Assembly: GCA_949358305.1 (NCBI GenBank)
Contig: OX442314.1
Location: 43,470,581 to 43,534,580, forward strand
Reading direction: 5' to 3'
Length of the DNA: 64,000 nucleotides
DNA from: Strigamia acuminata
Lineage: Eukaryota > Arthropoda > Chilopoda > Geophilomorpha > Linotaeniidae
Shown here: positions 3,358 through 29,712 of the stretch, piece after piece
How positions within the stretch are numbered: position 1 is the stretch's first letter
Layout: each line of letters starts with the position of its first letter
Made by a program: the position numbers and the translations under genes
The notes under the pieces: generated by a model
Told to the model about the DNA's origin: nothing
Database searches by the model: none
The model's input: only the letters and a program-made list of their open reading frames with translations

Positions 3358-4177
3358 TGTCGCGTCCTACTTGGTATAGGTTTAAATAGCGCTAACGTGT
3401 AATACTTTACCTGTGATCAATTATGTAAATACCCAAAGGAATACCAAATGTATGTAAATAAACAGGTAATTTATTCACCAGGCTTTATGCCTTTAAAATA
3501 CACTCAGTAATAATTCTAGAGTCGACGTGGTCAGCGTCGAACAAAGGATTTCTCAAGATGGCGTCGTCGATTCCGCGTGGTCGGCGGAACAAAGGCGGCG
3601 TCTCGAGTTGTCGTTAATTCGTCACGGATTCGTCTTCACGGACGCGGTGGAATGCTCTTTCGAGTCTTCTATCCGTGCCTGTTGTCTAGGGTTTGTTTAG
3701 CGTCGCAGAGGCCTCGTCTAGGAACTTTGGGGTTCCCTACAAAGCACTCGGACACTTACTTCGGCGAATAATCGTCTGGGCGATTATTCTGGGTGATTTC
3801 ACAAGGGCTATTCTCGTGCTTTCGCAGGAATAGCTCGCAAGTGACTTCGTGAGAGTTACAGTTTGCACTTTACTCAGCGATCCTCGATCAATCCTAACTT
3901 GTAGTTGAAGTTGGCCTGACGGTGAGGTAGTTGCTGTGTTCTTGGTGTCGTTTGTGTAAGTTCTGTCTTTAGGCGGGAAACACAGCCTTTTATGCAGTGG
4001 GGTGAAGGGCCGGCGATCAACCAATGGGGGCTGACCACCAGCCGCTTCCTCCCCCTCGGGGCACACACCTGCCATGGGGAGGTGGAGCCAACTCGGGGGG
4101 GAACGACTCTTTAATCATAGTGACTCATAGGACAAGTATCCGCCCTGGGGGGACACTTATCCAACTGGGTCACCACA
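3358..4177 (-). repeat. Element 1 LTR (3' LTR)
   Basis: TG...CA ends and the same length and sequence as the partner at 15407-16226. Read on the minus strand, CATAAAAGG near 4000 is a possible TATA-like box. The GGCGTCGTCGATTCC region at 3558 and the open frames inside are LTR sequence and not genes. Confidence 0.95.
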
Positions 4178-4224: not shown

Positions 4225-7011
4225 TCATCGCTCTCCTCTGCGAAGAGCCGGCAGCACTCCTCTGCATGGGCGGAGGATCACGGGTGGCACTGCCGGTGGC
4301 GGCGGTGGTAAATCCGGGGGCAGAGAGGTTGTCAGATCCGCAGGATTTTGTCGCTCGTTGATGAAGTACTGCGGGTGACTGCCGGCTGGCTCGCCAACCA
4401 ACCCCGTACGCTCATGGATCCAAATCCGGGTAGACGCGGGGAATCGATCGGGGACGAGTCGGATCCTTCGCGACTCGGCGCTCGATCCGGGTTTCCTGTG
4501 GGCCCGTAGGATACGGCGATGGAAGACGGCGTCCATGGTGGATCGGGCTTCTCTGTTTAGCCATTTGAGGATTGATTCGCCGTGATCGTCGGAGTCAATG
4601 ATGCGTTGTCGCGTGAACTCCGACATCTGAAGGAAGGGGTATTCCACTCCCAGCCTCAAATAAAGCTGCGCTGCTGGGGGCGGCGGAGGCGATGGTGGGA
4701 GCGGAATCTCCATTGGGCTCTCCAACGGTGGCGTAGCCGGCTCTGCAGAGAGAGCGGCCAGCCCTGCCGCTGGTGGTGAAGGAGAGGGCAGCGGAGGAGT
4801 TCGGGGTCCTCGCTTGGAACGCTTCGGAATCAATATGGGCCGATTCGCGTGTCGCTTCTCCTTCGGGAATACCGGCTTTGGGGTCGGTATGTATGGTTGG
4901 ACCGCCGCCTCTGGGGGGGCGGTCTCGATGGCCTGTGGAAGGCTCGCCGCCGTTCCCGGTATCTCCGGAACCTCCCGAATTGTTCGCAACAAGGAAGGGT
5001 GGACTCCGGGGTTCCGGTAGCGGAATGCTAACGAACGCATCTTTGAAAACTGTAGGCCTGGGTTTTCCGTATTTCTGGCCAGGTCGAAGCGCAGCGAGGC
5101 GGGCTCAGGAGTCCATCCGGCCCATACCTGGTACAACGCCCGAGGAAGGTGAACTCCCTCACGGTCGACGATTGTCCAGGCCGCCATAGCTTGCCGACTG
5201 TCCAAGAAGACGCCCAGGGATAGCAGCTGGGCCAGTACGTTCGTCACAGCCAAATTCAAACTGCTCCGATGGCAGGGGTGAGCGCGGTCCGGATTGTCAC
5301 TGAATTGTTGTGACAACGTCCGCATCTGTTCGATCGCCCAGTTGATGTGGTGAGTTTGGGCGGCGTCGGCCTGTCGTATGGCCAACTCGGCAATCGCGGG
5401 GTTCTCGTATTCGGCCAGATATTCTTGTAACTCGCTGAGTGGGGGATAGGCCGCTTCACGCCGGCATCTGGCGTCCATCTCCCGCTGCGCGTACCACTCG
5501 GCGTTGCGATGAGGATGGTACACTCGTGGCGTCGGGGGTGACGGTGGACGGCCCATCCCTGGTAGGTCGTCGTATCTGACCCGTTTGGGAGTTGGATCTC
5601 CCACCGGAATCATCCGGGGAGGGGTCCACGTGGTCACTGCTGGGTTTGTACCCTCGAGGAGTGGCGGCCATCGCGATTGCACCTGTGGGGGCACAAGCGC
5701 GGTGGGCACAGCCGGTGTTGAGCCCGACGGCCGGTTGGCCGCGTATCCTCGGAAGGCGTTCTTCAATGCCATGGCCAGATCTTGTTTCGTGACCGGTCCA
5801 TCCTTGTCCGACTCTTCTTGGGATATTTGTTCTTCCGTCAATTCTCCCAAATCAATCTCTGCCTGGAGCCTGGACGGCCCAGCCGCGGATCCGAGACTTC
5901 GGGGTTCGGACCTTTTTGCGGCGGCCATCTCTCGCTCTTTCTCCAATCCTTTCGCGATCAGAGACCGCGCACGCGTCTTCTGTCGTACTTTACGCTTCCG
6001 ATTCCTCCTGGTGTTGGCTGCGACGGATCTTCGTTGGACCGTCCTCTGGGGGACGTCCGTCGGGGAATCAGGTCTCTGGTGTGTTGAGACGGTTCGTCGC
6101 GACGAGGATTGATCTGACGACTGTGTGGTAATCGCCATAAACAACGAGGATCTTTTCTTTCCTCGATCTTGGTGTGTCTCGGTCCTCGCAGCCCAGTGGG
6201 CGGAAGATTCGACCGTTCGCTCAGCCCGCGCGTCGTCTGGCGAGGCAGGCTCGAGCGTTACTACTCGGCGACACTCCGAGCGCACGACAACTCGAGTTCG
6301 GGAACTGGAGCTGCTCGAGCGGCTGCGGTAGTCGCGACTCGTTGACGGGCCGGCCTCTGTTGGGGAGACGGCCTGTCTTCTTCGTGCGGGTCCGCGTGGG
6401 GCGGACTCCGCCGGACGCTTCGATCTTCTGTGATGGCGGCGACTTCCCAGGATACCAGCGTGGTATAACTGCCACATCTCAGACTGCGTGGCCGTAAAAT
6501 TCGCCGGTGGTATCCATCTGGGTGTCAAATGGTCTTCTTCGATGTCGCGAAGCCATCTACGGATTTCTTCGGGGGAGAAACCGTTTCTCTCGAGAACTCG
6601 GGTTACTCCGTGAGTCTCGGTGCGCTTTAAGCGTTCGATCTCGTCGTCCACTATTTTCTGGCGGGCTGCCAAGGTCGGGGCCTCGCTCCACCTGTGGGAG
6701 GTGTGCAGCTCGGCCACCGTGCCTGGGTAAGCCTCTTCCAGGTACCCGGAGTAAACGGGGCTCGGCGGATCCGCATCGGGTGGGATCCGCGGCCCCACTC
6801 GCTCCCTCATCTCCTTCGTCATGCACTCGACCAGCGTTTTCGATCGCTCGAATTTTTCCTCGAGGGTCCTGGAGTACATCAATCGGATTTTCCAGGCGCT
6901 GGTCTCTGCAGGATAGGCCTGCCGCAGGTAAATCGGCAGGGCTCCGCGAAAGATGTTGTTGGCGGTTGACACCGTCGAAGGCAGGGCGTCCCACGATTCT
7001 AGCGGGTCGAC
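4225..7011 (-). CDS. Element 1 third ORF, main exon (non-env protein)
   Basis: This exon encodes 928 residues and occupies the env position but has no signal peptide or membrane span. The frame has no ATG at its start: a TGA lies a few codons upstream of ATTATTCAG, and coding sequence that aligns with element 2 begins right after that AG at 7011. Joined in phase 0 to the leader exon at 7572-7688 it gives 967 residues. Conserved blocks shared with the third ORFs of elements 2 and 4 are an N-terminal IFRGALP...WKIRL..SR segment; an Rx-rich, serine/arginine-rich disordered linker; a helical middle region with MAAWTIVDREGVHLP; and a C-terminal block LRAHRKP...IWIHERTG...NERQNPAD. No known family is recognised. 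The basic linker could bind RNA, but that is a guess. Confidence 0.8.
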   Translation of the reverse strand, partial: VDPLESWDALPSTVSTANNIFRGALPIYLRQAYPAETSAWKIRLMYSRTLEEKFERSKTLVECMTKEMRERVGPRIPPDADPPSPVYSGYLEEAYPGTVAELHTSHRWSEAPTLAARQKIVDDEIERLKRTETHGVTRVLERNGFSPEEIRRWLRDIEEDHLTPRWIPPANFTATQSEMWQLYHAGILGSRRHHRRSKRPAESAPRGPARRRQAVSPTEAGPSTSRDYRSRSSSSSSRTRVVVRSECRRVVTLEPASPDDARAERTVESSAHWAARTETHQDRGKKRSSLFMAITTQSSDQSSSRRTVSTHQRPDSPTDVPQRTVQRRSVAANTRRNRKRKVRQKTRARSLIAKGLEKEREMAAAKRSEPRSLGSAAGPSRLQAEIDLGELTEEQISQEESDKDGPVTKQDLAMALKNAFRGYAANRPSGSTPAVPTALVPPQVQSRWPPLLEGTNPAVTTWTPPRMIPVGDPTPKRVRYDDLPGMGRPPSPPTPRVYHPHRNAEWYAQREMDARCRREAAYPPLSELQEYLAEYENPAIAELAIRQADAAQTHHINWAIEQMRTLSQQFSDNPDRAHPCHRSSLNLAVTNVLAQLLSLGVFLDSRQAMAAWTIVDREGVHLPRALYQVWAGWTPEPASLRFDLARNTENPGLQFSKMRSLAFRYRNPGVHPSLLRTIREVPEIPGTAASLPQAIETAPPEAAVQPYIPTPKPVFPKEKRHANRPILIPKRSKRGPRTPPLPSPSPPAAGLAALSAEPATPPLESPMEIPLPPSPPPPPAAQLYLRLGVEYPFLQMSEFTRQRIIDSDDHGESILKWLNREARSTMDAVFHRRILRAHRKPGSSAESRRIRLVPDRFPASTRIWIHERTGLVGEPAGSHPQYFINERQNPADLTTSLPPDLPPPPPAVPPVILRPCRGVLPALRRGER

Positions 7012-7571
7012 CTGAATAATTTTAGATCACAAGATTAATATAATAAATCCCAGTTTAACGATGGGGATCAGAAATATGCTCAAGATCGACGGTGGCAGCA
7101 ACTCCTTTCTTTTGTTGCGGCCGTCGGTCTTATTTTCTTGTTTCGCAGTTCTGCGATGATCTCCGCCGTCGTAGCGCTGATCCAACACTACCTTTGAACT
7201 CAGGTGATCCGCTTTTTAGGAAGGGGTCGCAGGCAAAACCGATCGTTAAATTCTTAATATTACGTTAAACTTTTTATTTTAACTCTAATCGTATTTTAAT
7301 TTATTACGATGTTTAATTTTAAAAGAAAGAAAACCTTTAGTTTTGGTTTTGGTTTGCCACGACGCCATTCCGCGAACACTTCCTTTGTTCTAGTTTTTTG
7401 GCGGCCTTGACTCCGAGGTGAATCTGGGTCCACTCTCGGGTTTTTAGCCAGCCTTAAATCAATAATAAAACAGAAAGAAATATATCAGTCACAAGTCACG
7501 CTCCAATCTGGGTTGGATGCAACAGATTCAAAGAATTATGTGATTTCTCTGGGGAAATCACACTAATTTAC

Positions 7572-7688
7572 CTGCAACGGCGGTTGTTCGTCCCAATTCT
7601 CATCGTCTTCTGCATTTACGATTAGGCCGTCGCTCTCGTCTCTCGACGATGCGCTCGGCTCTAATCGTGGGTTGCGTCGATCGGCCAT
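7572..7688 (-). CDS. Element 1 third ORF, leader exon
   Basis: A 39-codon exon starts with ATG at 7688 (MADRRNPRLE...) and ends ENWDEQPPLQ at a CAG|GTAAAT donor at 7572. It is acidic and lies about 380 nt downstream of the pol stop on the minus strand. The intron 7012-7571 joins it in phase 0 to the main exon. A TTCTCCCCCAAAG upstream may be the acceptor that brings the 5' leader of the genomic RNA onto it. The matching exon in element 2 shares the NWDE motif. Confidence 0.65.
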
Positions 7689-8068: not shown

Positions 8069-11000
8069 TTAGTTCTTCCCCACGACTTTGCCGTCCCGAA
8101 TGAACGGATTATTGCTTCGTCGTGGTCGAAGGTTGATTTTCGACGTGCTCGTAGATCGTGACTCTACTTGCTCGTTCATCTCCGATGTGTTGGCATTTTT
8201 CTCATTATTAATTTTTTTATTTTCCATTTCAGAAGTACATTCTTCTGCTTCCTCCCTCTCCGAAATTGCTTGCTCCGGCTGTGCTGGAGCCTCGTCGGCC
8301 GGAGATTCGGCGTCGAAGAATTCATCCTCGTCCTCCGCTATATTTTCAGCTTCATTTGTTTTTTGGAACGTGTCGACCACGGTGCCCCCTTGGCCGCTGT
8401 GTGTCTGACCTTCCAGCCAGATTTCTTGGGGAAACTCTGGCAGATATGGCCTTAAATCTCGGCCATGTATCGACTGAAAATTTTTGTTGTCCTCTAAGCG
8501 GCGTAGTTGGTATGCGTTGCCGCCGTGTTCGGCCACAATTACATAGGGACCGTCCCTCTTGTCGGCTAAACCTGCGGCGATGCCCCTCGCTGCATTGGAC
8601 AACGTGTGTGCCTCCTTCCACACTAGATCATTCACTTTAAAGTTCGCGAAAGCGAGATCGCCTTCTTTATCTGCGATTCTTTCTCTCATGTTGAAAATAT
8701 GCGCCATCATATGCTGGTATGTGTCGGATATAGTCTGTTCCAACCGGCACACGTACTCGTGTGGGCTCGATGGGTCTAATACGTTAACAGCTTCGGCAAC
8801 GCGTGGGTCCCATGGCATCCTTAATTCGCGGGCGAAGTTGAGGTACGCCGGTGAGAATTCGCGTGTTCTTGACACGGTTGAGCGAATGCTGAAAGCGATT
8901 TCTCGCAGGTATTCGTCCCATCGATTGTGAATGTCGGTGAATACTGTCAGCGCATATTTTATATCTTTATTTAATCTCTCGACTGGGTTTGTCTGAGGAT
9001 TATATGTGGAGGTGTTCGATGCATCCATTTTAAATTTCCTACAGAAGTCCTTATATATTCTTGATCGGAATTGGGGGCCGTTATCCGAAATGAGTTTTCT
9101 GGGAAACCCAAATCGCATTGCCACGTCGTAAAGGCACTCGACTATGTTTTCAGCCGAGGGCTTCGCGAGGGCGTACAGCTCCGGCCATCGGGTGGCCACG
9201 TCCATAATTACGAGAATATACATGTTCTTGTTTCCCGTTGTGGGCTTGGGGCCCATCAAGTCTATGCTTAAGCAGTCAAACGGTGCGTAGGGTCCGAGAG
9301 ACATGGCGTTTCTGGCTACTTTATCTCGCGGTCTGCATGCTTGGCACCGGGGGCAGTGTCGGATAAATTTCGTTATCTTTTGCCGCGCGCCCGGCCAGAA
9401 GAAAAGTTGCTTTACTCGATAAAGGGTTCTCGCTATGCCGGAATGGCTGGCGAGCGGGTGTCCGTGCATCAGCCACAACAGTCGGTTGTGCAGTGATGCC
9501 GGTACGACCACTTTCACCGAGTTTCCCGCTCCACTGAGGTCATCTTGAAATGTCGGGTGGTATTTTACCAGGAGTTCATCATCTATGAGGTAGCTTGTTG
9601 CTTCTTTGACGAACTGTTTCCGGCGGTGTGGGTTTGTCATCCCTTCCGGAAATTCGCCGTTCAGCAAATATTGTGTTATAATTTGACATTTTGTGTCTGC
9701 TGCCTGGTGTTCGACGAACTCACGTCTCGTGGGTGGAGCATATTGCGTTTTTTCTTCAATTTTTGCTGTGAAGGCGCGTAGTAGTGTTTTGTGGGTTTCT
9801 CCGGGGGGCGGAGGTTGAATTGCGGACGTTGAATCGCTCGTCCCAGCTGGCTGGTACGTTCGAGTCCAAAAACCACAAAACGTTCTATCTTCGGGCTCCA
9901 TCACCGGCAGTTCGTTTGCTTTTCGTAAGCGCCATATTCTGCGTGGAGTTGGGCAGTACAAGAGGTGGGTGTCGTCCTCGCCGTCGTCGTCTGGTCCCTG
10001 GGGGTCAGAGGCTGGGGCTCTTGAGAGGGCGTCGGCCACATGATTGTACTTCCCGGGGCGGTACGTAATTGTTATATCGCACGCCATTAACTCCAGTTGC
10101 CATCTTGCGAGTCGGCCGGAAGGTTCCTTGAGCTTCATCAACCAGCTTAGTGCCTGGTGATCTGTCTGAACCTCGAAGTTCGTGTACTCCAGATAGTCGC
10201 GAAATTTTCGAACTGCCCAAATTACGGCTAGGCATTCTAGTTCCGTTGCCGTGTAATTTTTCTCCGCGCCCTGTATTTTCCTGCTTATAAACATACAGGG
10301 TACTTCTTGCGAGATTCCGTTGTACACGTGGGTCTGCAGAAGGGCTGCACCCAGTCCGATTTTACTCGCGTCGGTGTGCAACACGAACGGTCGGTTTAGG
10401 TCCGGCAATGGCATCTTTTCGACGTCAGCCAGCATTTGCTTGATAGTGCTAAATGCGGCCTCGCACTGGACCGTCCACTCAAACTCTTTATCCGTTCGTA
10501 AGAGATCCGTTATAGGCGCGGCCACCTCAGCCAGACCAGAGAGTAGTCGGCCGAAGAAATTGACCATGCCCATGAATCTTTGGACACCTTTTATATCTTC
10601 GGGGGCGGGGAATCCGTTTATTGCTTTGACCTTTTCGGGGTCAATCGCGATTCCCTCGACTCCTATTCGATATCCTAGGAAGGCAAGCTCTTTTCTGCAA
10701 AACTTGCTCTTCCCTGGATGGATGTGGAGTCCCGCCTTGGCTAGGCGAGAGACCACTCTGTCGATGTGGTCTATATGCTCTTCGAATGTGTCCGACGTTA
10801 TTATTATGTCGTCGAGATACGCCCACACGAAGTCGTGAAGCATATCTCCCAACACGCTTTCGATCAATTTCTGGAACGTGCTCGGGGCGTTTACAAGCCC
10901 GAACGGCATCACGTTGAACATTAATCTTCCTATCGGGGAGTAGAAAGCCGTTTTTAGTTTGTCTTCTGGTTTTAGCTCCACTTGCCAATACCCCTTTGAC

Positions 11001-12199
11001 AGATCCATCGTGGTTACCCACTTGAACGGGCTCAGTTCCCGGAGGATCGAGTCTATAGACGGCATCTGAATCGGGTCTATAACTGTTATCGCATTCAGGG
11101 GGCGATAATCAATGCATAGTCGAGGCTCCGAGCCTGGACGCATTACCAGGACGATCCGCATCGCGTATTCGCCCAGCGCTTGAGTTACTATGCCCTTGTC
11201 GAGCATGTCTTGGCACATCTGCGTCACAATGTCTCTTTTCTGGGGGTTCATCCCCTTGTAAGGCACTCGAATCGGCTTGTCTGTGGTTAAGACTATTTCG
11301 TGGGTTGCTTCCGTCGTTCGACCAGGTGTCTTGGTCAGAATTCTTTCATGTTTTCGAAGCACTCGCCTTAGTAGCGATGCCTCGTTAACACGCAGTGCTG
11401 CCTCCTCGACCAGTGTGTCCACGACGTTACTCCTCTGTAATTCCAGAGTGAAGGCTGCGAAATCGTAATCTTGGACGAATTTTCGCAATCCTCTTCCGTA
11501 TTCCTCTTTGTCCTTGGCTTCGTCCAGTAATTTTTGGGGAACTACGGGGACTGGCCGTTCTCCCTCGGGACTTATCCAGTTCCATGAACGGGTTATCGGG
11601 TTTGGCTGAATTTTCAGTTTTGCCATGATATCCATCCCTAAGAGGAATACTTTGTCGTGGGATGGCAAGACTATGAAGGGGTGGGACAGGTTCCCCCCCT
11701 TCCAGTCGATCATGATGCGAACTACGCCCCTCGGCTTGACGTAGCCGTTGGCGGTGAGCAATTCTACGTTCGCGTTCACTTGTGCCACCTTTTTTTCAAT
11801 ATCCAAGTCCTTTACTATATCTTCGGATATGAATGAACGATCTGCTCCTGAATCCAGCAGACCGAACAATTTTTGGTTTTCGATCTCCACTGGCAGCATA
11901 CACAGAGTTTCGCAATGTGTTTTCGTGACATTGCAGTGAAAAACGCGTAATGTTTGGGGCTCAACCTCCAGATTGAACGGGAGGTCCGTCCAATCTATGT
12001 CGACCTCCGGCTTCGTTCTCACTTGCATACTTGTCAGCGTCACTGTTTCTTCCTTCTTCGGAATGGTCTGCATGCGATCTTTGATCTGTGCTTCTGCCAA
12101 GGCATGACCTGCGGGTCCAGTGTGATATTTCTTCTTTTTAATTTCCGCGGCTGGCGCAGACGAAGCTGAATTTATTTCGGCGACGCCTGCGCTTGGGAG
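8069..12199 (-). CDS. pol: Element 1 Pol: protease, reverse transcriptase, RNase H, integrase
   Basis: The frame is read after a -1 shift at 12199-12205 and gives 1376 residues beyond the slip. There is no suitable ATG, which fits Gag-Pol fusion. Counted from the TTG at 12100 (add about 33 from the slip site), the landmarks are: protease LLDSGADRSF near 81-90; RT with LCIDYRPLN near 330 and YLDD near 428; RNase H TDAS near 576; integrase zinc finger H..H..CPRC..C near 879-922; and the catalytic triad D947, D1006, E1041. All catalytic residues are present and no frame is broken. The C-terminus after the integrase is acidic. Confidence 0.95.
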   Translation of the reverse strand, partial: LPSAGVAEINSASSAPAAEIKKKKYHTGPAGHALAEAQIKDRMQTIPKKEETVTLTSMQVRTKPEVDIDWTDLPFNLEVEPQTLRVFHCNVTKTHCETLCMLPVEIENQKLFGLLDSGADRSFISEDIVKDLDIEKKVAQVNANVELLTANGYVKPRGVVRIMIDWKGGNLSHPFIVLPSHDKVFLLGMDIMAKLKIQPNPITRSWNWISPEGERPVPVVPQKLLDEAKDKEEYGRGLRKFVQDYDFAAFTLELQRSNVVDTLVEEAALRVNEASLLRRVLRKHERILTKTPGRTTEATHEIVLTTDKPIRVPYKGMNPQKRDIVTQMCQDMLDKGIVTQALGEYAMRIVLVMRPGSEPRLCIDYRPLNAITVIDPIQMPSIDSILRELSPFKWVTTMDLSKGYWQVELKPEDKLKTAFYSPIGRLMFNVMPFGLVNAPSTFQKLIESVLGDMLHDFVWAYLDDIIITSDTFEEHIDHIDRVVSRLAKAGLHIHPGKSKFCRKELAFLGYRIGVEGIAIDPEKVKAINGFPAPEDIKGVQRFMGMVNFFGRLLSGLAEVAAPITDLLRTDKEFEWTVQCEAAFSTIKQMLADVEKMPLPDLNRPFVLHTDASKIGLGAALLQTHVYNGISQEVPCMFISRKIQGAEKNYTATELECLAVIWAVRKFRDYLEYTNFEVQTDHQALSWLMKLKEPSGRLARWQLELMACDITITYRPGKYNHVADALSRAPASDPQGPDDDGEDDTHLLYCPTPRRIWRLRKANELPVMEPEDRTFCGFWTRTYQPAGTSDSTSAIQPPPPGETHKTLLRAFTAKIEEKTQYAPPTRREFVEHQAADTKCQIITQYLLNGEFPEGMTNPHRRKQFVKEATSYLIDDELLVKYHPTFQDDLSGAGNSVKVVVPASLHNRLLWLMHGHPLASHSGIARTLYRVKQLFFWPGARQKITKFIRHCPRCQACRPRDKVARNAMSLGPYAPFDCLSIDLMGPKPTTGNKNMYILVIMDVATRWPELYALAKPSAENIVECLYDVAMRFGFPRKLISDNGPQFRSRIYKDFCRKFKMDASNTSTYNPQTNPVERLNKDIKYALTVFTDIHNRWDEYLREIAFSIRSTVSRTREFSPAYLNFARELRMPWDPRVAEAVNVLDPSSPHEYVCRLEQTISDTYQHMMAHIFNMRERIADKEGDLAFANFKVNDLVWKEAHTLSNAARGIAAGLADKRDGPYVIVAEHGGNAYQLRRLEDNKNFQSIHGRDLRPYLPEFPQEIWLEGQTHSGQGGTVVDTFQKTNEAENIAEDEDEFFDAESPADEAPAQPEQAISEREEAEECTSEMENKKINNEKNANTSEMNEQVESRSTSTSKINLRPRRSNNPFIRDGKVVGKN

Positions 12200-12205
12200 T
12201 TTTTT
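12154..12205 (-). promoter_or_regulatory. Element 1 -1 ribosomal frameshift signal
   Basis: On the minus strand the heptamer A AAA AAC (12199-12205) lies in the gag frame as X XXY YYZ. A 6-nt spacer follows, then a stem GCGCAGGCG (12184-12192) pairing with CGTCTGCGC (12154-12162) over 9 bp with one G-U. The gag stop lies in the loop. After a -1 slip the pol frame is open. Function is inferred from matching the standard form. Confidence 0.85.
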
Positions 12206-15200
12206 GCTAGATTAGTATTTAACTCCATCATCATTTTCATCAAGGTTTGCATGATGCCTTTTTCTTTGACGGTTTTTTCGCATTTGTCGGAGTAGTGACC
12301 GTATTCTCCGCAGCTGTAACATTTGATGTTACTTTTATCCCCTGTGGGAGTGAATCCCGGTTTTTTCGGGACGAAGGGCGTCGGGAATCGTCTTTTTCCT
12401 CCCAATGCCCCTCTCGCTTTTGTTGCCTGCACGTGTGCTCTGAATTGTGCGATTGCTAAGGCCCGGTGTGCATGGTGCAAATAGGGACCTTGATCGTCGC
12501 ATCCCGTCGACAAGTTTTCGAGGTGCTCATTTAGGGCTTCCTCGTCGCTTGATGCTGGCTCCTCTTCTTTAGCCGTGGCGAGAGGTGTTGTCTCTTCGAC
12601 TTTCTCCATCTGGGTGGAGTCCGTCGAGGTCACCTGCATCGCCGTTGCTGCCGGTGCTTTCTTTGGGGCAGCTATCGGGTTGGCTGGAAGAATACTGCCT
12701 GCTTTAGGCGTCAGCATTCGTCCGAAGGATGCTTCGGTGAGACTCATTATGCCGCTCAAATATTCACTTGGCCTCATTAATTTCTCTGAGGTCTTGTGAC
12801 GTTCGGCGCTCGTCTGCAACCGTTTCTCGTGCGCGTCAGCTTCCTCCGGGGGCAGAGTGGCGTAATACCGCTGTTCTATTTCTAACGTGTTTGTTAGAAG
12901 ATAGTTACTGACATCTTGGTAATCGCCAGTGCGGGGTGCACGCATGTCTAGCAGAATTCTTTGCGAGTGGGCCGATAATCCTCCGTAAAAGATCATCGTA
13001 AAACCAGCGGGGTTTATTTCGTACGGCGCTCTTGCAAACAGGAGTTTCGCTCGGGCGTCGTAGTCGGCTAATGTTTCTCCTGGGGCTTGTCGTAGACCCC
13101 GTAATTTGTTACTGATCTCGTCTGGAGTCTCGCCGTATCGGAGATCGAAACGGACGAGAAAATCGTCCCAGGTTGGGTTTTTCAGTCCCTGGTACCATTC
13201 TCGAGCTGACCCCGTAGTTAGCTCCACTAGCCCGTGGGTTAGCATGTCGGCGACGGTGGCTTTTGTCGCTTTCTTGATACGCATTACTTCGTCCAGGAAG
13301 CGGTCTCCGGCCTTCCACGAACCGTCAAATCGCGTTTGAATATAGTGTTGCCAGCGGATGTTACCCGTGGCTTCACTGCTTGGTTCGTTTCGTACGCCAT
13401 ATTTGCGCTTAACCCTCTCTCCAGCGCGATTATGTTCGTCGCCTGGATGGCCTAGATCGATTCCTTCTCTTCTGAAAGAGTTCAGCAGGGCTCGGCCTAG
13501 CTCAGACATCGTGTAATGTCGGCCAGATGAGTCCTGAAAGTTCCCTTCCTCTGAACGAGGGTTGGAGCTCCGGGAAGAGCGGTCTGAAGCATTCGGCCGG
13601 TTCGACCGGTGCCCATCGCTGCCTTCTTGACTCCTTCCTGTAGACGGTCGACTCGGATGGTCGTCGTCCGACGAATCGGAGGGCTCGGAGGGATCTCCTT
13701 GGGGGTGAAACCTCGGCCCTCTCGGTGGGGTCTCTCCGCCAGCCTTCTTCTGTTTCGAGCCTCCGGATGGCGGCGGCTCCCCTCCGTCGTTGTTCTCGTA
13801 AAAAGAATGCCATCTGTTTTCCTCGCTTTCGGGGCGTTCCCGATTTTTATTTGCGTTTTTCTTTTCGAGTAACGCGTCGATGGCTGCTCCCGTCTCGGAT
13901 CTTTTTGAGGGGTGACGGTCCTTTGTTTTTGGGACCGACTCGTCTCTCTTTTGAGATTTCCCCCTTTTCGCCGTTTTTGCCGGCTTTGTTGCACCTTCTC
14001 CTGTGTCGGTATCAGAGCCGCTGGGGGGTTCTGGTTTCCGTTTCAGGTTTTCTTCATTTTTCTTCCTGTCCGAGACGTCTTGTGCGTACTCTTTCTGGAA
14101 CTTTTCTGTCTCCTTCTCCCAGTTTTCGGCTTCCCATCTTTTTTGCTCATCTATTATAGCTTGTTTCTTCGCTTTGTACTCTTCGGTCCATCTGACTCGA
14201 TCCCACTCTTCTTTCTCTTTCAGAAACTGTTCTTTTTCTTTTCTGGCTTCCTCTTCTCTCAACCTCTCGCGATGTTGTTCTTCCCATTTCTGATGTTGTA
14301 GAATGGCCTCTTTTCGCAACATTTGTAGTTTTTCTGTTTTTCTTTGAGCTATTAGCGCTTGAAATTGGTCCTCGTACTCTTGAGCTTCTCGATGTCGCCC
14401 TTCTACTGTTGCGTTCCATTCTTTTCGAATTTTAGCTTCTCGTTCTTCCCTCATTTTTTGGACCAGTTTCTCTGTTCTCTCGGTGGTTCTTCTCTCGCGT
14501 TGCTCCCTTTCTTCCTCTTCCTTCCAGAGTTCTCGCCGCTCTGCGCTCAGCCTTCGTTGGCGACTAGTCGCTTCTTGTCTGGCTTCCTCGCGGGCCTTCT
14601 CTCTGGATTCGTGAAGTGTTCGGTTGGGGTCTGGCGCGAAACCTCCGGTGTCACTGGGCGTTACCTGGGGCATGGGCGTCTCCGCTGCTGGTCTTGCGAC
14701 CGGCGTCGGGGCTTGTGCCGCACAGATAGCGTCAGTGAGTAGGGTAATCGATTCCCAGACTGACGTTCCTACTGGAATGTCTATCATCGCTTTTAGCTGG
14801 GCAGCTTGCTGCGTCAACCGAATTAGGTGAGATACTTCGAAGGAAACAACTGCAGGACTCGCCGTAACTCGGGGGGTTATCGGGGTCCCGCCGTCGTTTT
14901 TCCGTGGGGTTTGTTTTACGGACGTCTGAGCCGTTGGTGGCGATGGGTCTGTGCCGATCGTGACCGTTATTTTCGGAGCTTCATTCGTCTCCTCGGTCAT
15001 CAATATCGATACTCGTCCTGGCGATACGTCGCGAATTTCTTCTCGATTTTCTATGGCTTCCGGATCGGTATCTTCGAAGGGTTGCATATTCAAGGGAACC
15101 CGCTCTCGCTCTGGCCCGTCTAGGGCCGCGAGCGATGCAGCTTGCTCCTCTTTCTGCGCCTTCGCTCTCCTTTTATTCGCTCGGGCTTTCGCCTTTGCGG

Positions 15201-15312
15201 ACATTTCAGGGACGGGACCATCCGATCTCAGGTGGTAGTCGGAGGTCCTTTTTTCCTTCTCGGGCATTCTCTGCTCGGTTTCAGACGTGGATTGCTCGTC
15301 TTTGTCTGACAT
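12172..15312 (-). CDS. gag: Element 1 Gag
   Basis: The product is 1046 residues, with ATG at 15312. The first 600 or so residues are low-complexity and very highly charged, with a long Glu/Lys/Arg coiled-coil-like tract at about 225-410. A retrotransposon-Gag (capsid) region follows near 650-800, containing REWYQGLKNPTWDDF. A single zinc knuckle CYSCGEYGHYSDKC (CX2CX4HX4C) sits near the C-terminus. It packages genomic RNA and forms the particle. It is much longer than typical Gypsy Gags (about 300-500 residues), and the extra length is the charged N-terminal extension. Confidence 0.9.
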   Translation of the reverse strand: MSDKDEQSTSETEQRMPEKEKRTSDYHLRSDGPVPEMSAKAKARANKRRAKAQKEEQAASLAALDGPERERVPLNMQPFEDTDPEAIENREEIRDVSPGRVSILMTEETNEAPKITVTIGTDPSPPTAQTSVKQTPRKNDGGTPITPRVTASPAVVSFEVSHLIRLTQQAAQLKAMIDIPVGTSVWESITLLTDAICAAQAPTPVARPAAETPMPQVTPSDTGGFAPDPNRTLHESREKAREEARQEATSRQRRLSAERRELWKEEEEREQRERRTTERTEKLVQKMREEREAKIRKEWNATVEGRHREAQEYEDQFQALIAQRKTEKLQMLRKEAILQHQKWEEQHRERLREEEARKEKEQFLKEKEEWDRVRWTEEYKAKKQAIIDEQKRWEAENWEKETEKFQKEYAQDVSDRKKNEENLKRKPEPPSGSDTDTGEGATKPAKTAKRGKSQKRDESVPKTKDRHPSKRSETGAAIDALLEKKNANKNRERPESEENRWHSFYENNDGGEPPPSGGSKQKKAGGETPPRGPRFHPQGDPSEPSDSSDDDHPSRPSTGRSQEGSDGHRSNRPNASDRSSRSSNPRSEEGNFQDSSGRHYTMSELGRALLNSFRREGIDLGHPGDEHNRAGERVKRKYGVRNEPSSEATGNIRWQHYIQTRFDGSWKAGDRFLDEVMRIKKATKATVADMLTHGLVELTTGSAREWYQGLKNPTWDDFLVRFDLRYGETPDEISNKLRGLRQAPGETLADYDARAKLLFARAPYEINPAGFTMIFYGGLSAHSQRILLDMRAPRTGDYQDVSNYLLTNTLEIEQRYYATLPPEEADAHEKRLQTSAERHKTSEKLMRPSEYLSGIMSLTEASFGRMLTPKAGSILPANPIAAPKKAPAATAMQVTSTDSTQMEKVEETTPLATAKEEEPASSDEEALNEHLENLSTGCDDQGPYLHHAHRALAIAQFRAHVQATKARGALGGKRRFPTPFVPKKPGFTPTGDKSNIKCYSCGEYGHYSDKCEKTVKEKGIMQTLMKMMMELNTNLAKNSQAQASPK

Positions 15313-15384
15313 TTTCTTTCGGTAATTCTACGATTTGGGTTATCTTATTGAGAGATCACAAGTTCAGATTTGAGATTTATTTCT

Positions 15385-15404
15385 AAATCCCGGACAGGCC
15401 CCCA
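15385..15404 (-). other. Element 1 primer binding site
   Basis: On the minus strand TGGGGGCCTGTCCGGGATTT begins 2 nt after the 5' LTR. It is complementary to a tRNA 3' end reading ...CCCGGACAGGCCCCCA. From memory the nearest tRNA is tRNA-Pro with two mismatches, so the assignment is tentative. Confidence 0.65.
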
Positions 15405-15406
15405 CG

Positions 15407-16226
15407 TGTCGCGTCCTACTTGGTATAGGTTTAAATAGCGCTAACGTGTAATACTTTACCTGTGATCAATTATGTAAATACCCAAAGGAATACCAAATGT
15501 ATGTAAATAAACAGGTAATTTATTCACCAGGCTTTATGCCTTTAAAATACACTCAGTAATAATTCTAGAGTCGACGTGGTCAGCGTCGAACAAAGGATTT
15601 CTCAAGATGGCGTCGTCGATTCCGCGTGGTCGGCGGAACAAAGGCGGCGTCTCGAGTTGTCGTTAATTCGTCACGGATTCGTCTTCACGGACGCGGTGGA
15701 ATGCTCTTTCGAGTCTTCTATCCGTGCCTGTTGTCTAGGGTTTGTTTAGCGTCGCAGAGGCCTCGTCTAGGAACTTTGGGGTTCCCTACAAAGCACTCGG
15801 ACACTTACTTCGGCGAATAATCGTCTGGGCGATTATTCTGGGTGATTTCACAAGGGCTATTCTCGTGCTTTCGCAGGAATAGCTCGCAAGTGACTTCGTG
15901 AGAGTTACAGTTTGCACTTTACTCAGCGATCCTCGATCAATCCTAACTTGTAGTTGAAGTTGGCCTGACGGTGAGGTAGTTGCTGTGTTCTTGGTGTCGT
16001 TTGTGTAAGTTCTGTCTTTAGGCGGGAAACACAGCCTTTTATGCAGTGGGGTGAAGGGCCGGCGATCAACCAATGGGGGCTGACCACCAGCCGCTTCCTC
16101 CCCCTCGGGGCACACACCTGCCATGGGGAGGTGGAGCCAACTCGGGGGGGAACGACTCTTTAATCATAGTGACTCATAGGACAAGTATCCGCCCTGGGGG
16201 GACACTTATCCAACTGGGTCACCACA
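15407..16226 (-). repeat. Element 1 LTR (5' LTR)
   Basis: The 820-bp partner of 3358-4177, with TG...CA ends. The PBS side is at 15406 and the flanking duplication AGGT at 16227-16230. Confidence 0.95.
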
Positions 16227-16230
16227 AGGT

Positions 16231-16988
16231 TTTATTTCACTGGGTGGGGGATATATACAACAGATGCTCCCATTGGTTAAATGGATTCAAACCCAACAGG
16301 TGGGTGTAATTAAAGATGGAGACACATTCCAAACTTGGAAGTGTCTCTGAGGTTATCTCTGGGGTCACAGACCTCAATTTGAGTGAAAATAAAACCAAAT
16401 ACAATAAAACAAGTAAAAACGTTATTTGGAATATTTAAAATAATGGAAATACAAAAAACACTTTAGCAACTACAAAATTAATATAAGAATAAAGAGTTTC
16501 AACAAAATAGATTTAAGCAATTTAGTAAATAAAAAACACACAAATTGTACACTTAAGGTATTTAAAAATCACGATATAAAATGCACAAAATAGTAAAACA
16601 CAATAATTCAAAAAATAGACAAACATGTAATTTGTAAAACCACACGGTTTTCACAATCTCCAACAACATATTAATTACGGTATGCTTTACAAATTCGATT
16701 TCTCTTAATCTGGCCATTCATGTTCGAAAACTTCTTCGTCTTCCCTCGCTGTTTCCGAATTTGCGCAATAAAATTTCCTGTATTGACTTTATTCCGCGTT
16801 AAGCGATACAACGGCTCAAGCGAGGTGGAAAGGTTTGCAATGAAGCGACCATAATTTTTATTTTTATCACTCACTTTATTCAATAAAAATTGATTTCCCA
16901 ATCAAAACATCGCGTGCGCTCCTCATTTGGCTTCCATTGTCCATCCAACAATTAAACTAGAGCGTGGGAGATTTTTACAAACACAAAC
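16231..16988. other. AT-rich upstream region of the Sidestep-family gene
   Basis: No coding frame is supported. An almost perfect inverted repeat lies at 16319-16347 (GAGACAC-A-TTCCAA-AC-TTGGAA-GTGTCTC). The sequence just before it (16231-16318) may be old LTR-like DNA. The receptor promoter should lie near 16850-16980, but no TATA box stands out. Confidence 0.4.
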
Positions 16989-18557
16989 ATGTTGGTTTCT
17001 CGGCTGTTTCTCTTCCTGTGCGTCCCACCAACACTTGCCACCCAAGAAAAGGTGTGTAACACACCGAGCACAACCCACCTGTCCGTATTGAAAGACACCG
17101 AGACGCAACTCACGTGCAACTACGGAAGCGAATCGTCACCCGACGACAAACTTCAATTGATTTTCTGGTACAAGGACTCGTCCAACAACCCCTTCTACAG
17201 GTAAAACTAAGAAAAATAAAAAACAACATCGAACCAATCAAAACAATCCTCATTTCTCAGCGTCGATCTCCGCAACAAATCCCTCGTCCAAGCCGAGCAC
17301 ATCGTGCACTCGCAAAAAGACCGAATGCACTTCAACCAAACCAGCGCGTATCTATCAATCCCAAACACCCAACCGGGCGACCAAGGACACTACTGCTGCC
17401 GCGTCGACTTCCTCAAATCACCCACACGTTACTACGCCGTCAACTTGTCGGTCATAAGTACGAAATTGTACCCGAAACCCCACCAAAACCCAATTTTCCC
17501 CCCATTTTCAGCCTCGCCTTCACTGTCCGTCATCACCAACGAGCGCGGCCTGCGACTGGCTTCCTTCCCGCCGCCCTATGACGAGGGATCGCCGCTCTAC
17601 CTCTCGTGCAAAGTCGAACAAGGTGAACAAGAAATAAAATGGCAAACCGCTAATAACTCACGGTTAAAAATCTTAGGCCAACCACGACCGAGCGTCACCT
17701 GGTGGCACGACGACGTCCTCATTACCGACGCCCGACAATTCGTCTCCTCGGGAATCGTCCGCAACGACTTGACCGTCCCGGCGCTGCCACGCACGCACTT
17801 CAACACCACTTACACGTGCAGGGCGTCCAACACGAACCTGACGTCGCCGAGCACGACCAGCGTCACCATCGACATGAACCGTAAACAATCTGACCACTTG
17901 ACCAATCAAATCGGTTGAAATCGTCGCTTTCAGTCAAACCCATCCGAGTGACAATCCAACGGCCACTTCGCCCGCTGTCGGCGCAACACAAGTGCCAGCT
18001 GGAGTGCCAATGCGTCGGCTCCAGACCCGCAGCGGTCATCACCTGGTGGCTGGACCGCATCAAACTGCTGTCCGCCGAGCAGTACACGAGCCGCGACAAA
18101 GCTAGCACCCGCAGCGTGCTCATGCTCGTGCCCAGCAGCACCGACCACGGCAAACAACTCGTGTGCACGGCGCACAATCCTGTCGTGCCCAATAGCGACA
18201 TCCACGACAGTTGGACCCTCAACATTTATTGTGGGTATTTTTGCCGTTTTTCATTTTTCACTTCGAAAATTTTTTTTCGATTTTCAGACAGACCGGTGGT
18301 GGCGGTGGAAATGACGGCACCGCCGGACGAGGAAAACGTCGAGGAAAACACGGACGTGCACTTGGAATGCCACGTCGCTTCCAATCCGCTCGTGGTCGCC
18401 GTCAAGTGGAATTTCAAGGCAATGCGACGTCAAAACACATTCGCGTATATCACCTATAACCGATTTCTTCATTTTGCCAGTCCGCAAACGTGGAAAACAA
18501 CCCGGCAAACGGCATTACTGTGAGCGAGCAATCCCTGGTTATCCAATCCGTGCAACG
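16989..18557 (+). CDS. Sidestep-family Ig receptor, exons 1-7 (5' part)
   Basis: Exons: 16989-17200, 17261-17457, 17512-17622, 17677-17880, 17934-18230, 18288-18418 and 18481-18557 (interrupted). All introns are about 54-63 nt. All are GT-AG except 18419-18480, which is GC-AG (AAG|GCAATG). Every junction keeps phase. The protein starts with a signal peptide (residues 1 to about 18), then a V-type Ig domain (C43, W60, C116), a second Ig domain (C169, then RPSVTWW, C near 227) and two more Ig domains. The RPSVTWW core, the string of Ig domains, one FN3-like domain and one membrane span match the Sidestep family, axon-guidance surface proteins that bind Beaten path proteins. Exon 7 is cut at 18557 by element 2, so the intact coding order resumes at 30348. 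Confidence 0.85.
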
Positions 18558-19188
18558 TGTCGTGATTCGACTTTGTGGTTAAAGATAATAAATAATACAC
18601 TCGGGAATACAATATATTTCAAATACTGCTTTATTAAAACACGCTTACTAATACAAATATAAGTCAAGATGTTTCCTGTGTTGGTCCTCGGATTCGGCTG
18701 CGAATACGAGTTGCCGCTAAACAATGGCGGATCCAATTGTTTAGTCCTACGCGTGGTCTATGTTTGTTGTCTAGGGTATTTCCACGTGTTGTTATGAACA
18801 CGCGAGAATTCGCTTTCTCGTGCGAATTAAACGAATATCGTTCGAATATTTATTCTAGCGTAGATTGGCTACGCTAAATAAACGTGGCTGTTGTACAGTT
18901 GAGATGGTCAGCGGGCACCGGTCCTCGATCAATCCGTGAAACGGCCTGAAAGGTGAGGTAAATGGTGCTCTTGCTGAAATGTGGTAACTGTAGTGTCGTT
19001 TCCGGTCAAGTATCGGCGTTATATACTAACCGGAAATGACGTCATATGCAAATCCTTCCGATTATGCAGGTTCGCAGAAACACGAGACTAGTCAGTCTAG
19101 TCGGTATTTCTAGCGCGCTCTAGTGGCGAGTATTAGTAACACAATAATCACCGCTAATTACTTCTTCAGGTGATGCCGAATCACCACA
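18558..19188 (-). repeat. Element 2 LTR (3' LTR)
   Basis: 631 bp with TG...CA ends, matching 29713-30343. On the minus strand TATATAA at 19019-19025 is a plausible TATA box. It is followed directly by CGTCCCTCCCCGAG (plus strand), which is the polypurine tract of the minus strand. Confidence 0.95.
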
Positions 19189-22078: not shown

Positions 22079-22356
22079 CTAAATATTAGAATATTAATAA
22101 ATATATTAGGATCGTTGATTAATTTGTCATATTTTTGTAGAGATTCTTTCGTCTAACACAAGATGGCGTCATGGTCGGCCATGTGCTTTTCGACCACGTG
22201 TTTTGAAGTTAATTTTTCTTTCGGTATTTGATTAATTTTGATAATTTGTCACTTAAAGTTAAATTATTTTTTCGTTTGTGGTCAGTCCACGAACTTATTT
22301 CGTATTTTTGATTATCGATACTTGAATTTTTTCTATTTTTTTTTTTTTTTACTTAC

Positions 22357-22509
22357 GTCGGGTTGGACATCGGGTTCATTGGGTTCGTCCCAATTTCCCT
22401 CTTCGTTGTTTACAATGATTTGTAACAAATCCACTTGATCTTCATCGTCATCCTCGGAAGCGTTGTTTACGGCCCGTTCAATTTCTTTCTTCCAATCATT
22501 TCTTTTCAT
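22357..22509 (-). CDS. Element 2 third ORF, leader exon
   Basis: A 51-codon exon runs from ATG at 22509 (MKRNDWKKEIERAVNN...) to ...NWDEPNEPDVQPD at a strong donor GAC|GTAAGT. It is acidic. The intron 22079-22356 (278 nt) joins it in phase 0 to the main exon. The NWDE motif just before the donor is shared with the element 1 leader. Confidence 0.7.
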
Positions 22510-22694: not shown

Positions 22695-25600
22695 TTATCG
22701 ATTGTTTGAGACAATGGCCGGAGTCGCTTTTTGTTTTCCGACGAGTTTCCCGTCTTTTATGAACGGGTTTGGCTTGTGTCGACGCATACCGTATATTTTA
22801 TCAGGTTTGAGGATTCTTGTAGTCTTATTTTTGTTTGATTGCTTTCCTTTTTTAGGAGATTCTTCGACTATTTCCTCCCTCTCCGAAATCTCATCCGGGG
22901 CGTCGGCCGCTTCGTGTGACTCATCTTGAACTAAATTGGTTGGGCCAGTTTGTTCATCTAAAAACATGTCGCGAATAATTGGATTTTGCGCTGGTTTCGT
23001 CTGATATTCCGTCCAAGCCTCTTGAGGAAACTCAGGTAAGTATGGAGTTAATTCTCGGGCGTGGATCGATCTAAAATTAACGTTGTCTGCCAATCTTTTT
23101 AGCTTGAAAGCGTTTCCGCCGTGGGCTTCGAGTATGACGTACGGGCCGTCGCGTTTGTCTGCTAAGCCTGCGTGGACCCCCTTATTGGCGCTGGACTGAA
23201 TATGTGTGTCTTTCCAGACGAGGTCATTGACTTTAAAATTGCAGAAGGGCCGATCCTTTCCAGCAATGCTAATACGATCTCTCATGTCGAATATGTGTGA
23301 CATCATGTGCTGATAAGTGGCCGAAATTATTTGCTCCAGTCTGTCGACATAAATATGAGGCTTCTCAGGATCAATTTCCAGTATTTCCTCCGGTATTCGT
23401 GGGTCCCAGGGTACTCTGAGTTCCCGAGCGAAGTTTAGAAACGCGGGAGAAAATTTGCGGTTCCTTGAGATCGTTGTGCGGATGCTGAAGGCAATTTCAC
23501 GAAGATATTCGTCCCAGCTGGAGTGAACATCGGTGAAAATTGCTAGTGCATATTTTATATCGCGATTTAACCTTTCGACGGGATTGGCCCGTGGATTATA
23601 GGTTGATGTATATGATGTCTCGATGTCGAATTTTTTACAGAAGTCTTTGTACAAATTTGACGCGAATTGTGGTCCATTATCGGAGATTAATTTTCGAGGG
23701 AATCCAAAATGAAGCGCCACTTCGTACAAACATCGAATGATTTTTTGCTTAGTTGGTCTCTCCATTGGAAAGAGTTCGGGCCATCCAGTCGCGACATCCA
23801 TGATTACTAATATATATTTGTTTTTATTGGATGACGTGGGCTTTGGGCCCATTAAATCCACGCTCCAGCAATCGAAGGGTGCGAAAGGGCCAAGTGAGAT
23901 TCTCTCGTAGCTCTTGGGCGTCCTCGGCTTGCACGCTTGGCATCTGGGGCAGTGATGAATAAAACGAACGATATCTCGGGTCATTTTTGGCCAGAAATAA
24001 AGTTGATTTGCTCGGTAGATCGTTCTGGCCACTCCAGAATGTCCGGCGAGCGGGTGTCCGTGGACCATCCACAGAAACCTTGTCAGCAGACTCCTGGGTA
24101 TAACGACTTTCATCGAAGTTCCCGTCTCCGTCAGATCATCGCGGAAATTCGGGTGGTGTTTTAGTAGAAGTCCATCCTCGATTAAGTACGTGGAGGCTTC
24201 TCTTTCGAATTCTTCGCGTTGGATTTCGTCGAAATTCTCGTCGGGAAATTTTTTATCTGTGATGAAGTTTCGATAAGTTTTACAGAAGTCGTCTGTCATC
24301 TGGGCGGCTATTAATTCGTCCCTGGTGGGCGGCTTACTATTCGTCCCCTTGCTTACGTGGGCGACGAATGCTCGAACGTACTTGTCGGAGATTCGAGGTT
24401 CTATCGTTAGCTCGTAATTTGGGTGAGCGTCCTTGACAGACTGGTATGCTCGGAGCCAATAATTGTAATAATTTTGGTCTCCTGACTCGAGTTTCTCCTT
24501 GGGTAATTCGTTTAGCTTTTTAAATTCCCATTTTCGGACGGGGTTCGGACAGTAGAAGAGGCGTGAGTCGTCCTCTCCGCAGTCGGTCTCGTCTTCGGGG
24601 TCTGAAGCTGGGGCTCGTGAGAGGGCGTCTGCCACGACGTTGAATTTTCCGGGTCGGTATTCAATGATTAAGTCACAAGCCATTAATTCTAGCTGCCAGC
24701 GAGCCATTCTTCCGGACGGTTCCTTCAACGCCATTAACCACTTTAGTGCTTCGTGGTCAGTTTGTACGTTGAACTTGGTAAATTCCAGGTATGGTCTGAA
24801 TTTTCGGATTGCCCAGACGACGGCTAGACATTCTAACTCTGTCGCATTATAATTCTTTTCGGCTGCTTGTAATTTCCGGCTGATGAACATCGTCGGGACC
24901 TCTAACACTACTCCGTCGATGTCATGCTTTTGAAGCAACGCAGCACCTAGGCCAATTCGACTGGCGTCGGTGTGAAGAGTGAATTCTCGATTAAGATCTG
25001 GTAGGGGAATTCGTTTTACATCGATCAGCATTTGTTTTATCTTGTTAAACGATGTTTCGCAGTGGTCAGTCCACTCGAAATCTTTATCGTTGCGTAACAG
25101 ATCTGTGATGGGTGCCGCGACGTCTGCCAAATTTGGGAGCAATCGATTGAAGAAATTCACCATGCCCATGAAACGTTGGACTCCTTTTACATCTTCCGGG
25201 GCGGGGAACTGGCTAATCGCCTGGGTCTTTTTCGGGTCGATGGATAGGCCACCTGTTCCGACTGTGTAACCCAGGAATGCCAATTCTTTGCGGCAAAATT
25301 TACTTTTCCCTGGATGAATGTTTAGACCGGCTTTTGTGAGTCGCTCCATGACGTCATTCACGTGTATCAGGTGGTCTTCAAAAGTTTGGGAGACTATGAC
25401 TATATCATCGAGGTAAGCCCATGCGTATTTGTGTAAGGCATCGCCGAGAACTTTTTCTATTAGTTTTTGAAAGGTGGCGGGTGCGTTTACTAACCCGAAG
25501 GGCATTACATTAAACATCAGTCGACCCTGTGGTGCCCAAAAAGCTGTTTTCTCTTTATCCTCTTCCCGCAATTCAACCTGCCAGTAACCCTTGGACAAGT

Positions 25601-29710: not shown

Positions 29711-29712
29711 CG

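Follow-up and report, generated by a model that had tools for sequence, protein, structure and literature searches.

The protein CERV of Cer1, a Gypsy/Ty3 element of C. elegans, is spliced, is not an Env and is required for export of the genomic RNA, acting on Cer1 as Rev acts on the unspliced RNA of HIV-1; as far as the excerpted sections of its description go, it diverges fast, is 517 aa long and has three structured domains connected by flexible linkers, together with an essential cysteine loop and S214; three of its five exons use the gag frame, and it has no obvious homology outside nematodes (PMC10309623). The env gene of errantiviruses (gypsy) follows pol, is expressed by splicing and encodes a membrane fusion protein (cf. 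PMC12992720). Non-Env third genes with spliced messages are also found in LTR elements of bdelloid rotifers, the ORF3 products named in the excerpted source being GDSL esterases, DEDDy exonucleases and small transmembrane/coiled-coil proteins (PMC5408684). For the MDG1 group, the excerpted account describes sORF1 and sORF2 of about 110 and 70 aa, respectively, both located upstream of gag, with a nuclear sORF1 product, and gives no evidence of splicing of their transcripts (PMC11952523).

In the window analyzed here, a stretch of 64,000 nucleotides of Strigamia acuminata DNA, elements 1, 2 and 4 (E1, E2 and E4) form a single pol clade and share one third gene (family A). The host elements possess LTRs and the protease, RT, RNase H, then integrase order of Ty3/Gypsy. 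The third gene lies after pol on the minus strand, as do all the E1, E2 and E4 features given below, and its stop-to-stop frames comprise 933, 896 and 760 aa, respectively. E1 is bounded by identical LTRs of 820 bp (5′ LTR, 15407–16226; 3′ LTR, 3358–4177) and contains gag (12172–15327), homologous to the gags of E2 and E4 and producing a weak zinc-knuckle match, and pol (8069–12211) with Pfam RT, RNase H, integrase and protease. Its third gene consists of exon 1 (7572–7688), an intron (7012–7571, the donor 7571 being predicted) and the main coding exon (4225–7011), an open frame with the stop at 4225–4227; the stop-to-stop frame (4225–7026) includes intron positions 7012–7026. The LTRs of E2 are identical as well (29713–30343 and the 3′ LTR at 18558–19188, its first base placed by eye at the TGT start), pol occupies 22695–26882, and the third gene comprises exon 1 (22357–22509), a predicted intron (22079–22356) and the main coding exon (19388–22078). 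In E4, pol is located at 51147–55415, and two GT-AG introns at 50843–50908 (66 nt) and 50445–50714 (270 nt) separate the first (50909–50957), middle (50715–50842) and main (48162–50444) coding exons of the third gene; no LTR pair was found for E4 in the window, and a run of 200 N is present at its 5′ end.

Splicing and selection were tested using copies of the elements from other places in this 237.5-Mb genome. Two E4 copies are natural splice products: L049 lacks exactly 50445–50714 and retains the first intron, and L050 lacks exactly both introns, its middle coding exon being contiguous with its neighbors and its frame extending back to the ATG equivalent to 50957. The E1 copy L053 lacks exactly 7012–7191, that is, the predicted acceptor 7012 was used with another donor. 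The third gene is spliced in RNA, at both E4 introns and at the E1 acceptor; a genome can prove splicing without RNA reads, through reverse-transcribed spliced copies. The E1 donor 7571 and the E2 intron are predicted, no natural spliced copy of E2 having been found among the genomic copies. These two donors are the only ones scoring at least 7/9 in their post-pol regions, and the donor 7191 of L053 scores below this cut. Exon 1 of E1 and E2 begins with an ATG in a favorable start context and is in phase 0, and the predicted splice sites are kept in four of the five E2 copies (donor and acceptor) and in 4/4 E1 copies compared, with the E1 exon 1 frame likewise kept in all four. The preliminary description had the frames opening at a 3′ splice site, which the natural spliced copies bear out for E4 and the E1 acceptor and which for E2 is a prediction from the letters.

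Pairing of exon 1 with the downstream ORF took in 34 of 49 (E1), 27 of 51 (E2) and 52 of 59 (E4) ORF places, and all pairs found (27, 26 and 35, respectively) retain the intron. Among the 59 E4 matches listed, two have longer frames, both spliced (the other 57 were not individually inspected). Since the introns are usable yet kept in the paired genomic copies, the unspliced RNA appears to be usually copied. Both spliced E4 copies still contain pol; spliced, pol-containing E4 RNA was thus reverse-transcribed at least twice, and therefore intron retention is not strictly needed.

In BLASTP comparisons without filters, the E1 and E2 third genes scored 210 bits (100 locally shuffled controls reached at most 37.7), E1 and E4 50.8 bits (shuffled-control maximum 36.2), and E2 and E4 48.5 bits (34.3), the pairwise significance for the last pair being limited to the C-terminal block. 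Three conserved blocks had been proposed earlier; the N- and C-terminal ones were recovered as described, and the supposedly separate 'HQL..AG' block turned out to be the end of the N-domain. A middle domain, absent from that proposal, is clear between E1 and E2 in pairwise comparison (E1 residues 533–669) and is joined by E4, by alignment alone, in a cropped alignment. The family A protein is built of three constrained domains on less constrained linkers, in E1 the N-domain (6352–7026, frame residues 1–225), the middle domain (5002–5466, residues 521–675) and the C-domain (4327–4668, residues 787–900). Among the best matches, all 49 scored for E1 (of 2731 candidates), all 51 for E2 (of 3654) and 57 of 59 for E4 (of 1494) are free of stops, i.e., 157/159 of the matches listed for the three families together. 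Median dN/dS was 0.09 in the E2 family and 0.13 in the E1 family, which confirms purifying selection between copies. Within families, omega for the middle and C domains was 0–0.11; in E1 it was 0–0.09 for the middle domain among the compared copies and 0.04–0.06 for the C-domain in the two of four copies having silent changes there. Between E1, E2 and E4 silent sites are saturated while 27–30% of residues remain, in agreement with the earlier suggestion of a long-kept gene.

The product had been described as a non-envelope protein devoid of signal peptide and membrane spans. Hydropathy and family searches agree on this: the highest 19-residue hydropathy was 1.75, 1.84 and 1.01 in E1, E2 and E4, respectively, the peak in E1 and E2 falling within the middle domain, on a marginal stretch that is not hydrophobic in E4. 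Family A gave no Pfam, NCBIfam, PHROG or PDB family match and, judged by sequence, no match to an Env or fusogen. Env or fusogen identity was rejected for lack of anchor, signal peptide and match, and a third ORF should be tested before it is called Env on account of its position in the env slot. A duplicate of gag was rejected too, since hhalign of the third gene against gag produced no match. Among 5.8 billion proteins, no third-gene relative was found at E ≤ 1e-3 (about 8000 word-sharing candidates scored per search), versus 2098 pol relatives in the same database. Searches of IMG/VR with the third-gene and pol alignments, and of a phage collection with pol, gave no match and are therefore uninformative. 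Structure prediction from three-sequence alignments gave mostly helices, with pLDDT of 49 and 46. Among the matches listed in the PMC literature, no title or opening lines describe the third gene.

Like CERV, family A is a non-Env third gene in the env position, is spliced with introns remaining in genomic copies (directly for E4 and the E1 acceptor, not for E2), has three domains on linkers, diverges fast and has no outside relatives found. Unlike CERV, with its first exons in the gag frame and its cysteine loop, the E1 and E2 proteins have a predicted length of about 950 aa, the putative first exon or exons with their own ATG lie downstream of pol and apparently do not share the gag frame, and no conserved cysteine cluster is present, cysteine being absent from the invariant columns. 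Nothing among the candidates scored in the protein searches revealed a similarity to CERV. With errantivirus env, family A shares the slot after pol and splicing, but it shows neither an evident signal peptide nor an anchor and produced no match. As to the subgenomic strategy of errantivirus env, which the preliminary description suggested for this lineage, the stretch from the LTR to the gag ATG contains no donor of at least 7/9 in either E1 or E2, two E1 candidates of at least 7/9 lie inside the gag start, at 14764 and 14664, and the spliced genomic copies retain pol. The bdelloid ORF3 is likewise a spliced non-Env third gene, whereas family A has no Pfam match, neither a GDSL nor a DEDDy domain being found by Pfam search. 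Like the MDG1 sORFs, family A is an accessory gene of Env-less Gypsy elements; unlike them, it is large, follows pol and is spliced. In complex retroviruses, Rex and Tax are made from spliced mRNAs and act in trans, on the RNA or promoter of the virus itself. The working mode that we propose for family A (spliced mRNA, trans action) would resemble that of Rev, Rex and Tax, although family A is far larger and no sequence match to them was found.

The third gene may help the element to manage its own RNA, a role already known from one worm element and from complex retroviruses. Our tentative reading is that family A could be a nuclear trans-acting regulator of its own element RNA, working like Cer1 CERV or Rev, relatedness to which is undemonstrated. 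Default splicing would strip the third-gene introns and yield the mRNA of the third protein, which would then bind the element RNA or its ribonucleoprotein and let the intron-containing genomic RNA escape splicing and exit the nucleus; the exported unspliced RNA would serve Gag/Pol translation and packaging. Such a regulator is supported by the usable introns of a genomic RNA that nevertheless seems usually copied unspliced, and by the third-gene intron itself, with no detected coding role and kept in three families with saturated silent sites. The constrained domains, the main frames of pI 9.2–10.1 with basic clusters in E1, E2 and E4, and the lack of a membrane span point the same way, as do the precedent of CERV and the unrelated third gene of element 3 with its NLS-like start and cysteines. 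Furthermore, E2 derivatives with most of the third gene deleted exist at five loci in three places, and therefore the product may either work in trans or not be needed for spread. If the regulator reading is true, CERV is one case of a recurring solution for unspliced-RNA export by intron-bearing retroelements.

The same reading is weakened by the lack of a recognized domain, conserved cysteine cluster or sequence match, and by the reverse transcription of spliced pol-containing RNA. Export-signal-like patterns are below shuffles in E1 (4 versus 5.6) and E4 (5 versus 7.8) and above them in E2 (10 versus 6.0), thus not consistently raised; the SR-like linker was rejected, as RS/RE/RD dipeptides (z of 0.4–1.6 in E1, E2 and E4) are no more frequent than composition predicts. 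The introns also fold unremarkably in E1 and E2. Whole-intron folding z was −5.0 (E1), −0.6 (E2) and −8.2 (E4), and the means of 200-nt windows were −1.71, −1.44 and −5.28 in introns versus −1.95, −1.07 and −3.26 outside, 6 of 162 outside windows of E4 being as low as its best intron window; hence the idea of an intronic response element with a defined structure was rejected, E1 and E2 being not distinctive and E4 displaying a mild excess only. Finally, divergence of the intron between E2 copies amounts to about half to all of that at silent sites in the neighboring end of pol. It is lower than the divergence of the downstream frame, which recombination can explain, since these copies are mosaics.

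Apart from regulation of its own RNA, the third protein might belong to the particle, as a second component attaching to Gag or nucleic acid via basic linkers. Such a structural or packaging role, which we regard as rather unlikely, would suit a basic, arginine-rich protein and its E1–E2 identity of 0.30, near that of the gag capsid region (0.32), but the gene has no profile similarity to gags, is not part of the Gag-Pol frame but follows spliced introns, and is mostly deleted in derivatives at several places. Foamy virus Tas and HTLV Tax are transcriptional transactivators of their LTRs. An analogous role at the element's own LTR, with exon 1 as an activation segment, is unlikely: the first exons of E1 and E2 encode acidic peptides (39 and 51 aa) with NWDE in common and the protein is basic, yet no DNA-binding domain was recognized, and the first exons of E4 are less acidic and devoid of NWDE. 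It is slightly less probable still that the protein suppresses small-RNA silencing in the host or counteracts some other host restriction factor, in favor of which fast divergence between families, the lack of outside relatives found and the accessory position speak; the strong purifying selection on the middle and C domains (omega 0–0.11) gives no arms-race sign there. A soluble transmission factor or degenerate Env, suggested by the env position and the marginal hydrophobic segment of E1 and E2, is very improbable considering that this segment is not hydrophobic in E4, that no evident signal peptide, anchor or Pfam/PDB sequence match was found, and that the protein is much larger than the MDG1 sORF2 of ~70 aa (PMC11952523, as excerpted). 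Frames that are open by chance, or only because the insertions are young, are conceivable because the two LTRs within each of E1 and E2 are identical and best-match lists could hold young copies open without constraint; they are refuted by homology across saturated silent sites, dN/dS of about 0.1 and precise natural splice products, and retain a negligible probability.

Element 3, which adjoins the E1/E2/E4 clade in a quick tree with long-branch warnings, carries on the plus strand (40864–42498) a third gene of an unrelated non-Env family (family B) without a profile match to family A, its ATG closely following a candidate 3′ splice site. It is possible, albeit doubtful, that this Gypsy lineage is an env-less analog of complex retroviruses, in which families A and B would both be splice-site-started nuclear controllers of the splicing or export of their own RNA, with independent origins of the Rev/CERV type, and in which the deleted derivatives would spread by complementation. 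The family B protein (544 aa) is in outline nearer to CERV than family A is, owing to its NLS-like start and conserved cysteine cluster, and 12 matches to it at 37–38% identity, among the matches listed, are free of stops.

The window contains four Gypsy elements that each carry a third gene (E1-E4) and a fifth, gag-pol element; the Gypsy domain order is present in their pol proteins. Two elements of the minus strand, E1 (LTRs at 3358-4177 and 15407-16226) and E2 (with LTR ends at 19188 and 30343), each have an identical pair of LTRs. The LTRs of E3 (31334-44526, plus strand) differ at 1 of 1658 positions. E4 is again a minus-strand element, for which no LTR pair was found; its third gene spans 48162-50444, its pol extends to 55415, and 200 N stand in a row at its 5' end. 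The primer binding sites of E1 (15385-15406) and E2 (29690-29712) presumably correspond to tRNA-Pro and that of E3 (32992-33013) to tRNA-Gln.

The third genes of E1, E2 and E4 had been described as alignable in conserved blocks, and pairwise matches between their products indeed exceeded shuffled controls, which fell far under the E1-E2 score and clearly under the scores of the E4 pairs. E1 and E2 match in the N-terminal, middle and C-terminal domains, E1 and E4 in the N- and C-terminal domains, and E2 and E4 only in the C-terminal one; in a cropped alignment the E4 middle domain joins the others as a candidate. Judged by these alignments, the three genes (family A) are homologous. In a rapidly built tree of 120 RT rows the E1, E2 and E4 clade received an SH-aLRT of 99; E3 adjoins it (SH-aLRT 99), in a region for which the program issued a long-branch warning. 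Since E1 and E2 are the closest pair by both pol and third gene, the simplest reading is that the third gene was inherited along with the element.

Between the families, fourfold sites of the aligned blocks are saturated (identity 0.26-0.31), 27-30% of residues are kept, and second codon positions are the most conserved. Within families, 10 of 51 E2 and 10 of 49 E1 matches were fetched, mostly from the more diverged ones. The median dN/dS between these copies is low, 0.09 (0.07-0.15) for E2 and 0.13 (0.06-0.22) for E1, calculated from pairs with dS > 0.02 (48/55 and 50/55, respectively). The one high value (0.45, L032 against the window) reflects 3 silent changes and 4 replacements. By domain (5/10 E2 and 4/10 E1 copies), dN/dS was 0-0.11 in the middle domain, 0.04-0.06 in the C-domain of copies having silent changes there, and 0.05-0.06 in the E2 N-domain (one copy, having 3 changes, gave 0.14); the E1 N-domain gave 0 to 0.96 from few changes and is hence uninformative. 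The main linker showed 0.11-0.21, and the proline/lysine linker 0.17-0.47 in E2 versus 0-0.16 in E1. Genome-wide, 49/49 (E1), 51/51 (E2) and 57/59 (E4) scored matches were stop-free, counts biased to young copies, as these matches rank highest among thousands of candidates.

The frames of two E4 copies measure 821 and 827 aa versus about 760, which is explained by the absence of introns in the fetched copies L049 and L050. L049 is collinear with the window to 50715 and resumes at 50444; L050 makes the same jump and another from 50909 to 50842. Both gaps start with GT, end with AG and equal the introns predicted earlier (50445-50714 and 50843-50908). In L050 the reading frame runs uninterrupted from the counterpart of the ATG at 50957 through to the main exon, and each copy retains at least 1.8 kb of upstream pol. 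Five additional E4 copies yielded no further splice products. Among 13 E1 copies with the short upstream exon 1 and no listed ORF, one (L053) lacks exactly 7191-7012; of the predicted intron 7012-7571 it thus confirms the acceptor, the donor being 7191 instead of 7571. Frames upstream of this donor are closed, and L053 represents alternative splicing of element RNA without coding extension. No splice products were found in 14 such E2 copies. In L019, exon 1 is missing together with most of the intron, but here the loss is a deletion at a short repeat and not a product of splicing. The intron is kept in paired exon-1/ORF copies of E1 (27 pairs, gaps 545-546 nt), E2 (26 pairs, 270-291 nt) and E4 (35 pairs, 270 nt).

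Five E2-family loci (L070, L073, L074, L075 and L078) share a deletion from 22259 to 19682, which removes the greater part of the third gene; the scar holds a 60-nt inverted pol piece and is followed by a 3' LTR. They are 99.2-99.9% alike, L074 being compared only with its sister loci; 1.7 kb was read per locus. As three of them lie within 20 kb of one contig, they represent at least three places, and this spread suggests that the third-gene product acts in trans or is unneeded for mobility. Five other E2 copies (L034-L038), whose silent divergence from the window varies along pol from 0.01 to 0.34, are mosaics, probably produced by recombination among subfamilies; in a sixth (L033) the good match is confined to the pol end region.

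The family A protein is basic, and neither a signal peptide nor a membrane anchor is evident in it. The unspliced RNA of the element is needed in the cytoplasm, though its introns are used; in C. elegans Cer1 the same need is met by CERV, a spliced non-Env third-gene protein (PMC10309623). Family A resembles CERV in position, splicing and modular layout, a parallel that need not reflect common descent, and differs in the absence of gag-frame exons and of the cysteine loop. Similarity searches with the family A protein gave no match, a negative qualified by the databases themselves, which seem to contain distant pol relatives only (for the 120 listed out of 2098, RT identity peaks at about 45%). 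Neither export-signal patterns nor intron structure consistently supported a CERV-like role. Considering these missing features, we propose, at somewhat below an even chance, that the protein regulates export or splicing of element RNA; it may instead be a structural protein, a transactivator or a silencing suppressor.

The E3 third gene (40864-42498, plus strand), examined together with L086-L089, constitutes a second non-Env family (family B); kinship of its product with family A was rejected by profile comparison. Family B proteins start with an NLS-like motif (KK..KKR or KR, then SSSS(E/D)EE) and have a conserved cysteine cluster, CPFC...C.NC...CxxC; in size, NLS-like motif and cysteines they may be said to recall CERV in outline. 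In a subfamily near 38% identity, 12 listed matches are stop-free, 4 of which were fetched.

The fifth element (58375-63141) is a single gag-pol frame of 1588 aa in which three zinc knuckles and, below cutoff, a weak Tf2-1-like SH3 match were detected; no long third frame follows up to the window end. A 10-bp tandem repeat array (57445-58034) adjoins the N run of E4. Over much of 47000-57400, E4 RNA folding is stabler than that of shuffles, more so than in E1 or E2 (mean z of -3.26 for windows outside the intron, each compared with 30 shuffles). Two frames outside the listed genes, 46014-47186 and the proline-rich 2148-2948 with its cysteine-rich end, had no Pfam match. Between E1 and E2 (16227-18554) lie Ig-domain frames matching PDB chains of titin (best E-value) and of Sidestep IV and VII. 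Sidestep is an arthropod family, which makes an arthropod host probable; by these matches the frames probably belong to a Sidestep-like host gene.
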